Positions 1 to 3,335 of a stretch of DNA of 64,000 nt are shown one piece after another. Both the position numbers and the translations under genes were made by a program. This DNA is from a virus: positions 1 to 64,000 of IMG/VR virus record IMGVR_UViG_3300023118_000001; one strand, given 5' to 3'. How positions within the stretch are numbered: the first letter of the stretch is position 1; each line of letters opens with the position of its first letter. A model generated the notes under the pieces. The model searched no databases, was not told where the DNA came from, and was given only the letters and a program-made list of their open reading frames with translations.

Positions 1-210
1 TTGTTGAAAGTGGCTGAAACTGGCGATTTATATCAGGGTCTCAGCAGCAATCCATACTCCCCTCACAGCGATCCCTTATATCTCCCCCATACCCCCTCTA
101 TACCCCCTCTTCTTGTTAACTCTGTAAGAGTAAGAGATACAGCCGTTCGTCTGGAATCTCTTGACAACACTATTTTCTTGTTTCCCTTCGGTAAACGAGA
201 GCCAACACCT
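1..210. other. Left-end stretch without a supported gene
   Basis: I see no convincing gene here. It lies downstream of the leftward genes at 211-1240. The minus strand can encode a 14-residue peptide starting at 214 and overlapping the stop of the preceding gene, which is too short to claim. Two near-identical copies of ATACCCCCTCT lie side by side around 88-111. A TTGACA at 162-167 has no matching -10 box on the plus strand. Confidence 0.5.
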
Positions 211-402: not shown

Positions 403-764
403 AAGTCGACCTCCTTGCTGAAGGGCGTGAAGTCAATCTCGCTGTCCTTCCACTGGTAGCCGCAGACGCCGGTTGCACGGCCACCTTGTTGCACCGCCTC
501 AGCCGGGGTGAAGCGCTGCCCCTCGATGGAATACACGAACTCGCAGTGATCCTTGATGATCGCCGTGAGGTAGGCGTCACGCAGACCTTCGGCGTAGGCA
601 TGGAGATTGGGGCGATCGCTGCTGATATAGCGGGTGACGTCCTCGGTGAACATGCGTTCGAAGTCGGCCCGTGCCAGGCGCAGCAGCTTGGTGATTTCGT
701 AGAGGGTCAGCACCGCGCTGCAAATGTGGGCGCGGCTGGTCAGCGCATCCTTGTTGCGGTTCAT
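393..764 (-). CDS. Hypothetical protein, 123 aa
   Basis: Unrecognised soluble protein of 123 residues, rich in charged and aromatic residues, with no clear motif. Start chosen at the ATG that overlaps the previous gene's stop (ATGA) and has GAGGAG seven bases upstream; a longer reading frame runs further upstream but overlaps the preceding gene. It is the middle member of a three-gene leftward cluster (761-1240, this gene, 211-402), all coupled by overlaps, so the three products are likely made together. Confidence 0.75.
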   Translation of the reverse strand: MNRNKDALTSRAHICSAVLTLYEITKLLRLARADFERMFTEDVTRYISSDRPNLHAYAEGLRDAYLTAIIKDHCEFVYSIEGQRFTPAEAVQQGGRATGVCGYQWKDSEIDFTPFSKEVDLWV

Positions 765-1240
765 GCCTGCGCTCCTCGAGTGAGACGGGACAGGGTTTGA
801 GTGAGGGCGCCTACCAGGCCGCTGGTGGCGTAGTTGTCCAGCTGCGGCAGTGGCACACCGGTCTGCTGCGCAATCCACTGCGGGAGCTGGCGCAGGGCGT
901 AGACGATGCCCGCGTCACCCTGCTCCTTGGCGTTTTGCAGGGCCATGTCCCACGCACCGGGGTTTTCGATCAGGTCGCTCATTTTCAGGCGGCGCACCGG
1001 CGTCTTGGCGGTGCTGCGCAGCGGGCGGAAGTTGTGGTGGGTTTCGCACCAGTCGCTGAGCTTGTTGACGGCCAACGCGGTGTGGATGGCACCGATGAAG
1101 GTGTGCACCGGGTGCTGACCGTTGAAGCGGTACACGCTGCAAGCGTAGATATTGGTCAGGCTGAGGGGCAGGTCGAGGTCGGCGGACAGGTCGACGTTTT
1201 GCGCTTTGATCGCGGCGGACAGGCGGCACATGATGGACAT
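761..1240 (-). CDS. Hypothetical protein, 159 aa
   Basis: Unrecognised 159-residue protein. No signal peptide or membrane segment. The start has AAGGAA eight bases upstream, inside a leader (AGCAATAAGGAATA) that is repeated almost exactly in front of the gene at 1755-2522, suggesting a shared translation-initiation design. It is the first gene after the terminator at 1379-1410, so it needs either its own promoter (the 1241-1378 gap contains two 14-bp direct repeats) or read-through of that terminator. Confidence 0.75.
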   Translation of the reverse strand: MSIMCRLSAAIKAQNVDLSADLDLPLSLTNIYACSVYRFNGQHPVHTFIGAIHTALAVNKLSDWCETHHNFRPLRSTAKTPVRRLKMSDLIENPGAWDMALQNAKEQGDAGIVYALRQLPQWIAQQTGVPLPQLDNYATSGLVGALTQTLSRLTRGAQA

Positions 1241-1378: not shown

Positions 1379-1410
1379 AAAAAAGGCTCAGGCGTGGGGA
1401 CGCCTGAGCC
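1379..1410 (-). terminator. Rho-independent terminator (leftward)
   Basis: A perfect 11-bp stem (GGCTCAGGCGT at 1385-1395 with its complement at 1400-1410) closes a four-base loop; an A6 tract at 1379-1384 becomes U6 in the leftward transcript. It lies after the lipoprotein gene and before three more leftward genes. Confidence 0.88.
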
Positions 1411-1437: not shown

Positions 1438-1701
1438 TTAGAAAATCAGGTTGGACCGCGTCGGGGCGCTGATTTGCACCGCGGCCGGCTGGACGTCGGC
1501 CATGGGCACCACTTCGCAAGTGGCTTGCCGGCCCATTAGCTGCAAGGCGTCGGCCATGGTCGCGCAATTCTCGATTTCGGCCATGGTCGCGCCGTCAAAG
1601 CGCTGCAACTCCGACCGTGAACACTGGTCGTGGGGAACAATGCCCGGCTGCACCGGGGCGGGAGAGCACGACAACACAAGCAAGAAAGCGGCAACGGCCA
1701 T
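1438..1701 (-). CDS. Putative small lipoprotein
   Basis: An 87-residue protein beginning with a short signal-like stretch (MAVAAFLLVLSC) where the VLSC resembles a lipobox with Cys at position 12, followed by a proline-rich spacer. The mature part has two further cysteines (about residues 27 and 46) and no recognised domain. The ATG is preceded by AAAGGA, eight bases away. Placed directly after the 255-aa gene and just before a strong terminator, it is the last gene of the first leftward unit. A phage lipoprotein in an early region could act in superinfection exclusion, but this is only a guess from its predicted location. Confidence 0.65.
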   Translation of the reverse strand: MAVAAFLLVLSCSPAPVQPGIVPHDQCSRSELQRFDGATMAEIENCATMADALQLMGRQATCEVVPMADVQPAAVQISAPTRSNLIF

Positions 1702-1754: not shown

Positions 1755-2522
1755 TTAGGCCGCTTTGGCGACTTTGCCACCGGCACGCTTGTCGGCGCCT
1801 TTGTTGTTGCCGTTGCCGTTGGTGCCGACGCCAGCGCTTTGCAGGGCTTTGGCCACGTCGACCGATTCGCCTTTGTTGGCTTCGGCGCTGAATTGAGCGT
1901 CGAGGGCCATGTACAGGGCTTTGGCGTGGGCCAGCGCTGACCAAAGTTCTTCTTTGGTGCCGATGAAGCGGGAATCCTTGAGGCACTTGAGGGCCTTTTC
2001 GGCTTGGTTGGCGAACGCCTTGGCGGTCATTTTCGGCGCCTCCTCCTCGGTCTCCTCGGGAGCGGCCTTTTCAAGATTCTTGAATTCCGTGAAAGTCAAA
2101 GCGAAGTCACCGAAGGCGCTGTAGAACTTCGAACCAACTTGTTTAACCGTGTCGGATTCCTCAGTGGCGCCGACCGCTACAAAGTGAGTCGCCACAATCG
2201 ACTCTTTTTGCAACTTCACAAGGCCCATTTTGTGGGACTTTTTGTCCCAAACAAGGCGCGGAAAGTGGGCTTTAATGTAGCGGTAAAGTTCGGTGCCCAG
2301 TTTCGACAAGTCGCCGGACTTCAAAGTCATAACCGGCAGTTGGAACAAAGTGTCGATCCAGTTACGGTTGCCGTGTTGGGCCATTTGTATGGCGGCGGCA
2401 TTCGCCCAAACAGACAGGATTGTTTCATGTTTGGAAAAGGACTTCTTGTAGGCGGCAATCAAACGGGCGTCTACAGTGGTGCCTTGTACTGTGATGGTTT
2501 TGATTTCGATTTGCTTAGTCAT
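1755..2522 (-). CDS. Hypothetical early protein, 255 aa
   Basis: First gene behind the long leftward leader. 255 residues: a mixed N-terminal two-thirds, an acidic patch near residue 155 (EETEEEAP), then an alanine/lysine-rich segment and a Gly/Asn-rich basic tail. No catalytic motif or family recognised. The start is clear: ATG with AAGGAATAAGATC in front. An isolated promoter, an untranslated leader of several hundred bases and first position in the unit all suggest abundant or early expression. The flexible basic tail would suit nucleic-acid binding, which is inference only. Confidence 0.8.
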   Translation of the reverse strand: MTKQIEIKTITVQGTTVDARLIAAYKKSFSKHETILSVWANAAAIQMAQHGNRNWIDTLFQLPVMTLKSGDLSKLGTELYRYIKAHFPRLVWDKKSHKMGLVKLQKESIVATHFVAVGATEESDTVKQVGSKFYSAFGDFALTFTEFKNLEKAAPEETEEEAPKMTAKAFANQAEKALKCLKDSRFIGTKEELWSALAHAKALYMALDAQFSAEANKGESVDVAKALQSAGVGTNGNGNNKGADKRAGGKVAKAA

Positions 2523-2553
2523 GATCTTATTCCTTATTGCTAGTGGGTTATGG

Positions 2554-2581
2554 CAAGGGCCCTTGGTATTAAGGGCCCTTG
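2554..2581 (-). repeat. Inverted repeat of self-palindromic arms
   Basis: CAAGGGCCCTT and AAGGGCCCTTG flank a six-base loop. Each arm is itself a palindrome (AAGGGCCCTT), so the arms can pair with each other or act as two tandem protein sites. It lies 32-59 bases upstream of the ATG of the 255-aa gene and lacks a U tract, so it is not an ordinary terminator. Confidence 0.7.
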
Positions 2582-2644
2582 ATCTAGCACACTAGGGGTT
2601 AGTGGTAGGGGGTTGTTAATTCTAAATGCTTAGTTCTAATCATC

Positions 2645-2669
2645 GGGCCTAGCCATGTAGGGTAGGCCC
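2645..2669 (-). repeat. Leader hairpin GGGCCTA/TAGGCCC
   Basis: Seven-base inverted repeat with an 11-base loop, in the leftward leader. Confidence 0.5.
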
Positions 2670-2784
2670 TTGTAGTCATTCACTATCCGTTGTTTGTATG
2701 TCGGTGGCGTGGCGTATGTAGTATCAGTATAAGGATAAGCAGCCGTCGCCCCGTGCGTCTCGGTTAGTGTGTTGCGGTCAGGGA

Positions 2785-2796
2785 TGTTAAAGAGTG
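2785..2796 (-). promoter_or_regulatory. boxA-like antitermination site 2
   Basis: On the minus strand this reads CACTCTTTAACA, one base different from the other copy at 3087-3098 and from the bacterial rRNA boxA core GCTCTTTAACA, which is bound by NusB/S10. It lies about 260 bases before the first leftward gene. Confidence 0.6.
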
Positions 2797-2915
2797 GTAA
2801 CAATCTACAATGCATCACTAGGCTTTACCTGTATCTAACAACCCCGGTGGGGAGTGAACATGGCTCGATTCCGTTGATAAAGGTTAAACCGTATACAGGG
2901 CATCTGCTGTTTACC

Positions 2916-2941
2916 CTATCGGCCGTGTGGATATCCGATAG
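2916..2941 (-). repeat. Leader hairpin CTATCGG/CCGATAG
   Basis: Seven-base inverted repeat with a 12-base loop, between the two CCGTATACAG copies. Confidence 0.5.
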
Positions 2942-3023
2942 TGCCGTATACAGTATGGAAGTTAAGACTACGATCATATAGAAACCTGAGGCTGGTCAGG
3001 TTCTCGCAGGCAAGTCTTCCCCG

Positions 3024-3048
3024 TAACTCAAATTGCTTATTTGAGTTA
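3024..3048 (-). repeat. Leader hairpin TAACTCAAAT/ATTTGAGTTA
   Basis: Perfect 10-bp stem with a five-base loop, AT-rich, downstream of the first boxA on the leftward transcript. There is no U tract after it. It could be an RNA element or an operator. Confidence 0.65.
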
Positions 3049-3056
3049 TTGTTGTC

Positions 3057-3068
3057 GCGGGAATCCGC
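3057..3068 (-). repeat. Small tetraloop hairpin after boxA (boxB-like)
   Basis: GCGG and CCGC enclose a four-base loop, 18 bases downstream of the first boxA. The boxA-then-small-hairpin order is that of lambdoid nut sites, but the stem is only 4 bp and no N-like protein was recognised. Confidence 0.35.
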
Positions 3069-3086
3069 AAGTGTGACGCATTGAAT

Positions 3087-3098
3087 TGTTAAAGAGCG
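3087..3098 (-). promoter_or_regulatory. boxA-like antitermination site 1
   Basis: On the minus strand this reads CGCTCTTTAACA, identical over its 11-base core to the enterobacterial rRNA boxA. It lies about 80 bases after the predicted start of the leftward transcript, the position expected for an antitermination signal. Confidence 0.7.
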
Positions 3099-3171
3099 GG
3101 CAAGGCGCGGGCAAAGGACCGGCCTAGCGGTAGGGCCCGAGGGCCTTACCTGTGAAGCGATTCGTTGTTGC

Positions 3172-3201
3172 TTGGTACATGTCAAATACTAGAGATATAA
3201 G
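3172..3201 (+). promoter_or_regulatory. Candidate sigma70 promoter, rightward
   Basis: TTGGTA (3172-3177), 18-bp spacer, TATAAG (3196-3201). It interlocks with the opposing leftward promoter at 3186-3214, so RNA polymerase cannot occupy both. It would drive the rightward block beginning at 3454 after passing a hairpin with a T tract. Confidence 0.45.
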
Positions 3202-3214
3202 GACATAAGGTCAA
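3186..3214 (-). promoter_or_regulatory. Candidate sigma70 promoter, leftward
   Basis: On the minus strand: TTGACC (3214-3209), a 17-bp spacer, TAGTAT (3191-3186). Best promoter match upstream of the leftward genes; transcription would begin near 3178. Confidence 0.6.
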
Positions 3215-3255
3215 GCGGAAAAAGAAAGAAAAGTGAAAATAAATGAGGGCCGATG

Positions 3256-3335
3256 CCAGGCACCCCACCCCCATTTTCTAGCACGGGAGTGACGTGCCAC
3301 AGTGCCTGGGTCATCCCTAGGATTTTTTACTTTTT
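3256..3335 (+). terminator. Branched hairpin with T tract, possible leader attenuator
   Basis: CCAGGCAC (3256-3263) pairs with GTGCCTGG (3302-3309) and encloses an inner GCACG/CGTGC hairpin (3281-3297). A short imperfect stem and two T6 runs follow (to 3335). It sits between the rightward promoter and the first rightward gene, so it would stop or regulate early rightward transcription. Confidence 0.4.

Follow-up and report, generated by a model that had tools for sequence, protein, structure and literature searches.

A conserved phage leader RNA with two boxA elements that may recruit the host Nus complex

The RNA element boxA is bound by NusB/S10. In the leaders and spacers of ribosomal RNA (rrn) operons it works with the NusA/B/E/G-SuhB-S4 set, and complexes with NusA, NusG and SuhB suppress Rho and, in vitro, partly reduce intrinsic termination (PMC6614801). 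A 567-bp noncoding 5' UTR leads to Rho termination in E. coli, and placing an rrn boxA upstream gives partial relief (PMC4807359); the boxA in the leader of CRISPR arrays raises the transcript about 10-fold (PMC7862264). A counter-precedent is the E. coli suhB gene, where boxA and Nus factors promote Rho termination instead of preventing it (PMC5725501). Phages are known to use boxA mainly within N-dependent nut sites (PMC5725501), and the put RNA needs no dedicated protein factor for its action on polymerase (PMC9378689).

The phage leader described here resembles each of these systems in part. With rrn leaders and spacers it shares the boxA sequence, a long untranslated structured RNA that opens with a hairpin and then boxA, the presence of two boxA copies in one transcript and a promoter with an UP-like tract; it differs in that rRNA is lacking, a protein gene follows and the second box is without the first G of the consensus. 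As in lambda (pL-nutL-N-tL1), boxA is followed by a small hairpin, structured RNA precedes the first gene and a terminator follows that gene, whereas here no N is recognised, the hairpin does not form in some relatives, the leader is about 660 nt long and there are two boxes. The CRISPR-array (PMC7862264 and references therein) and suhB (PMC5725501) elements are likewise examples of host boxA in untranslated leader RNA outside rRNA, but they belong to cellular loci, have one boxA and no comparable structured leader. The put RNA of HK022 is also a hairpin-bearing early phage leader for which no phage protein is known, but it measures about 70 nt and acts by itself on polymerase, whereas boxA dominates the conservation of the present leader. 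Finally, GOLLD and ROOL are conserved structured phage RNAs of hundreds of nucleotides, often near tRNA genes; unlike these, the leader has no Rfam match, lies directly upstream of a gene and carries boxA. No description of a double-boxA phage leader was found in the open literature searched.

The stretch analysed (the window, 64 kb) is the start of an 87-kb virus record, whose kin are the Pseudomonas phages PMBT3 and Lana, with UAntarctica further off. The host is probably a Pseudomonas-type bacterium; the relatives include several metagenomic contigs, and hosts are known for the cultured phages only (Pseudomonas). Given that 127 bases are identical at both record ends (window 1-127, record 87280-87406), the genome is probably complete, with a unique length of about 87,279 and ends that are either circularly assembled or terminally redundant. 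Rightward genes (terminase, structural) extend from about 3.4 to 39 kb; the leftward set, which comprises replication and small early genes (assigned partly by comparison), begins at 2.5 kb and continues past the record end down to about 40 kb. The leader forms the beginning of this leftward direction. After gene 1, gene 2 and their terminator follow a few more genes, a gap of about 0.9 kb (window 1-170 and record 86935-87406) and the main early block. The gap holds purine/G-rich GGGGGTATA-type repeats, present also in PMBT3 and Lana and more loosely in UAntarctica, and is a candidate replication origin.

The coordinates of the features are collected in Table 1. On the leftward strand, the initial annotation had placed two boxA elements, a small hairpin 18 bases after the first, the start of the first gene and a strong terminator, and had called the leader unusually long; all of these were found where claimed, and the leader was indeed long. 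The leftward promoter is preceded by an UP-like T/A-rich tract (3215-3245), and its sequence suggests a transcription start near 3180. Further upstream, between the divergent promoters, the conserved inverted repeat is likely a regulator site (candidate operator). A terminator-like hairpin on the plus strand (3305-3321), kept with its A/T tract in relatives, lies just upstream of the rightward genes; it could stop antisense transcription or belong to the promoter region.

Table 1. Position (in the window) and strand of features in and around the leader.
Feature	Position	Strand	Remarks
Inverted repeat TGGCACG-N7-CGTGCTA	3279..3299	.	conserved; alignment of relatives, motif scan
Sigma70-like promoter	3186..3214	-	-35 TTGACC, 17 nt, -10 TAGTAT; conserved in alignments
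Untranslated structured leader RNA	2523..3180	-	about 655-660 nt; homologous in 11 phages
Hairpin P1	3129..3150	-	upstream of boxA1 (boxB position in rrn leaders); segment alifold z -2.9
boxA1 CGCTCTTTAACA	3087..3098	-	context CCCGCTCTTTAACAATT; invariant 11/11; rank 1 of 12-mers; mostly unpaired
Small hairpin P2 GCGG-ATTC-CCGC	3057..3068	-	18 nt after boxA1
Covarying hairpin P3 AACTCAAAT/ATTTGAGTT	3025..3047	-	hand-picked arms, 9 sequences
Conserved element ACGGGGAAGACTTGCC	3009..3024	-	near-fixed distance to boxA1, 71-78 nt
Hairpin P4 AACCTGA/TCAGGTT	2983..3002	-	alignment, arms test
Hairpin P5	2916..2941	-	conserved loop ATATnCACACGG; segment alifold z -15.9
Hairpin region P7	2821..2866	-	conserved CUCAC...GUUAGA; segment z -2.95
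boxA2 CACTCTTTAACA	2785..2796	-	rank 2 of 12-mers
Poorly structured segment after boxA2	2700..2784	-	mean single-sequence folding z about +0.7
Hairpin P9	2645..2669	-	stem variable in sequence, present in all
Two-part hairpin P10	2540..2595	-	directly before ribosome-binding site
Ribosome-binding site AATAAGGAAT	2529..2538	-	conserved
Gene 1	1755..2522	-	255 aa; homologue after leader in all 11 phages, plus L044, L046
Gene 2	1438..1701	-	small, 87 aa; from sequence, start inferred
Strong intrinsic terminator	1379..1410	-	after gene 1/2
First gene behind terminator	761..1240	-	159 aa

Ten further phages carry a homologous leader, namely PMBT3, Lana, UAntarctica and seven from IMG/VR. Over the resulting 11 leaders (L010 and L011 being taken as copies of L009) the mean pairwise identity is 57% (45-83%). 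In IMG/VR, a protein search with gene 1 as a single sequence gave no match, and one with the alignment of gene 1 succeeded. No match was obtained for leader or gene 1 in genome contigs and plasmids, nor for an L046 query against phages. Some candidates were set aside: L018 and L020, whose 5'-end pattern matched by chance, and L045 and L074, where the match is on the wrong side of the terminase gene and was put down to chance. L062 and L070 were left out of the count, having imperfect boxA-like sites in long intergenic regions.

The two boxes stand out by conservation: boxA1 is the first and boxA2 the second most conserved 12-mer of the 11 leaders, and both keep these ranks in an unanchored alignment (9 sequences). 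The boxA2 core CTCTTTAACA is kept in 9/11 leaders; those of PMBT3 and L036 differ from it by a single base. A loose 12-mer search of the window by itself is unremarkable (4 matches at <=2 mismatches against 2.4 by chance); it is the conservation across 11 homologous leaders that takes the boxes beyond chance, a single-genome count being insufficient. The pattern GYTCTTTAANA, which is the published gamma-proteobacterial boxA consensus (PMC5725501) and not the rrn boxA of the host itself, has a single match in the 87-kb genome, namely boxA1; boxA2 departs from it at the first base. Across these genomes the core CTCTTTAANA hardly occurs outside the leader, where its reversed form, used as a control, is equally rare (0-1 per genome). 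In local folding boxA1 is mostly single-stranded (mean about 0.74 against 0.50 for the leader). It lies about 80 nt from the 5' end of the RNA, with boxA2 about 300 nt further on.

Three more distant phages also carry boxA1 in a leftward leader, always upstream of the terminase gene and in the opposite orientation: L044 (terminase 68% identical), L046 (52%) and L090 (31%, with a leader of only about 200 nt). L046 has TTTAAAAA in boxA1 and a similar site, ACTTTAAAAA, about 300 nt on, and the second box of L044 is degenerate only. Since it is kept in these phages, boxA1 outlasts most of the leader. The presence of two boxA copies in every close relative examined argues that the leader probably borrows host machinery. 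That the boxes are its best-conserved part also bears on a put-like element, which the initial annotation had raised and we do not favour: an RNA that works on polymerase directly, independently of Nus factors, and resembles boxA only incidentally would fit the serial hairpins close to the 5' end, but put itself comprises about 70 nt with two stem-loops (PMC9378689), and we regard this as highly improbable.

The leader as a whole is an untranslated and strongly structured RNA: its longest ORFs are inconsistent between phages, and the fold of the minus-strand sequence is far stronger than that of shuffled controls (z -6.4). Rfam gave no credible match at the gathering or a permissive threshold. 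As no rRNA family matched either, the RNA cannot be called an rrn leader, even if it may function in the same way. No conservation was seen for Crc/Hfq-type CA motifs (AANAANAA).

Comparison of the homologues shows that not only the boxes but also the stems are conserved; a lack of such conservation would have refuted the proposal of the initial annotation, which thus survives. Covariation is found too. The best-supported stem is P10, with 94% of cells paired (slid controls 20-37%) and a compensatory change in 12/17 pairs. P3, P4, P5 and P9 show compensatory changes as well; here the support rests on hand-chosen arms because MAFFT fails to align P3 in every row, and is weaker given that the choice of arms favours pairing. 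Against column shuffles, alifold gave z -15.9 for the P4/P5 segment, z -10.6 for P9/P10 and weaker values (about -2.9) for P1 and P7; segments just after boxA1 or boxA2 were no better than shuffles, and segments S1 and S4 were without alifold signal. On the boxA1 module RNAalifold returned invariant pairs only.

Taken together, the best explanation (with a probability of roughly 0.55) is an early phage leader that recruits the host Nus complex in the manner of rrn operons. We favour this recruitment because the rrn complex suppresses Rho and the 567-bp UTR reporter is a close analogue of the leader. Transcription from the host-type promoter would yield an untranslated RNA of about 660 nt, on which boxA1 and boxA2 would be bound by host NusB/S10; these, with NusA, NusG and probably SuhB, would remain attached to the polymerase, as happens on ribosomal RNA and on CRISPR leaders. 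So modified, the enzyme would resist Rho over the long leader, in which C exceeds G, and so deliver gene 1 and gene 2, while the loop between boxA and polymerase may aid folding of the leader and delay translation of gene 1. Judged from the sequence, Nus factors probably bind here, and an anti-Rho role is somewhat favoured by our analysis; an effect on gene 1 translation is less likely. The base composition (C 28% against G 20%) is no more than suggestive of Rho sites. Points against the Nus/anti-Rho reading are the departure of boxA2 from the published consensus, the opposite effect of boxA and Nus factors in suhB, and the extensive conserved structure, which exceeds the needs of an anti-Rho tether.

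A rival reading is that of a functional large RNA, either rRNA-like or a sponge for Nus factors, where boxA would serve to make or fold the RNA or to titrate NusB/S10/SuhB and gene 1 would be cargo. The many covarying stems, the lack of an Rfam match, the strong terminator closing the unit and the two boxes in an untranslated RNA (rrn operons being alike) are in line with this, as is the finding, cited in PMC4807359, that NutL RNA at high level titrates Nus factors and lowers rRNA expression. However, one and the same gene comes first after the leader in every case, and the last hairpin of the leader abuts the ribosome-binding site, as is typical of a cis leader, and L090 carries its boxA in a far shorter leader; we hold a functional RNA to be improbable. 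Also improbable is a class of large structured phage RNAs that imitate the way an rRNA operon begins (UP-like promoter, then hairpin-boxA-structured RNA-boxA-structured RNA) and are built on, or titrate, the host rRNA transcription complex in early infection.

The position of P10 next to the ribosome-binding site, together with the suhB precedent (PMC5725501), could also be taken to mean that the boxes repress, the Nus factors blocking translation of gene 1 or promoting Rho termination for feedback control. Given that the start codon is 565 nt away from boxA1 and 263 nt from boxA2, neither of which overlaps the ribosome-binding site, and that expression would be expected of an early gene, such repression seems most unlikely.

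Downstream of the leader, a strong intrinsic terminator is found at the same place after gene 1/2, 1.1-1.5 kb past the start of gene 1, in 10/10 phages with enough sequence to show it (the window among them); in L046 one lies at 0.73 kb. Strong sense terminators number just two in the 50.8-kb leftward unit of this genome, the other being far downstream. The T tract of the terminator after gene 1/2 is followed at once by CGCGCG (1368-1375) in 10/10 phages, with CGCGCGCG in eight. For the model of the gene 1 product a weak BFVD similarity (E 0.002-0.1) was seen to uncharacterised podophage proteins, e.g. of PPA-ABTNL and ICP2.

The lambda scheme would assign this terminator a role in regulation: boxA1 and P2 together would act as a nut-like site at which a phage protein (possibly gene 1) modifies polymerase, allowing read-through at 1379-1410 into the genes behind. 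The conserved order of promoter, boxA/hairpin leader, first gene, terminator and same-strand genes resembles pL-nutL-N-tL1, and in lambda, too, there is structured RNA between NutL and N, with Nus-dependent repression of N (PMC5725501). P2 lies 16-19 nt past boxA1 in 11/11 leaders with an invariant GCGGA, though its loop is variable and it folds in 9/11, failing to form in the other two. Between the terminator and the next gene the window shows no consensus sigma70 promoter, which would fit read-through, but five phages share a conserved AAATTTTCCCATAAGTA-like motif past the terminator that might be a promoter of its own. Moreover, gene 1 is a poor candidate for N: its 255-aa product has only 6 Arg, appears folded in the AF2 model (pLDDT 74) and has neither a family match nor, for the model, a PDB fold match. 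Among the genes examined no N-like protein was recognised, the same outcome as in the initial annotation, and we think a lambda-like system improbable as well.

What remains of the antitermination originally proposed is the conserved boxA and stems and a predicted, likely dependence on host Nus factors; the purpose assigned to it, read-through of 1379-1410, is not supported, as a strong conserved terminator fits the ordinary end of a unit as well as a regulated one. It is mainly Rho on which complexes of the rrn type act, and transcription of rrn operons stops at intrinsic terminators that are strong. Read-through of the 1379-1410 terminator is rather unlikely.

A conserved double-boxA leader in non-lambdoid phages of about 85 kb in which no N is recognised would mean that a phage directly uses the rRNA-type Nus complex of its host. 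The leader offers a new structured RNA family and a natural test of the role of boxA on a transcript other than rRNA, and phage takeover may through it be linked to the synthesis of host rRNA.
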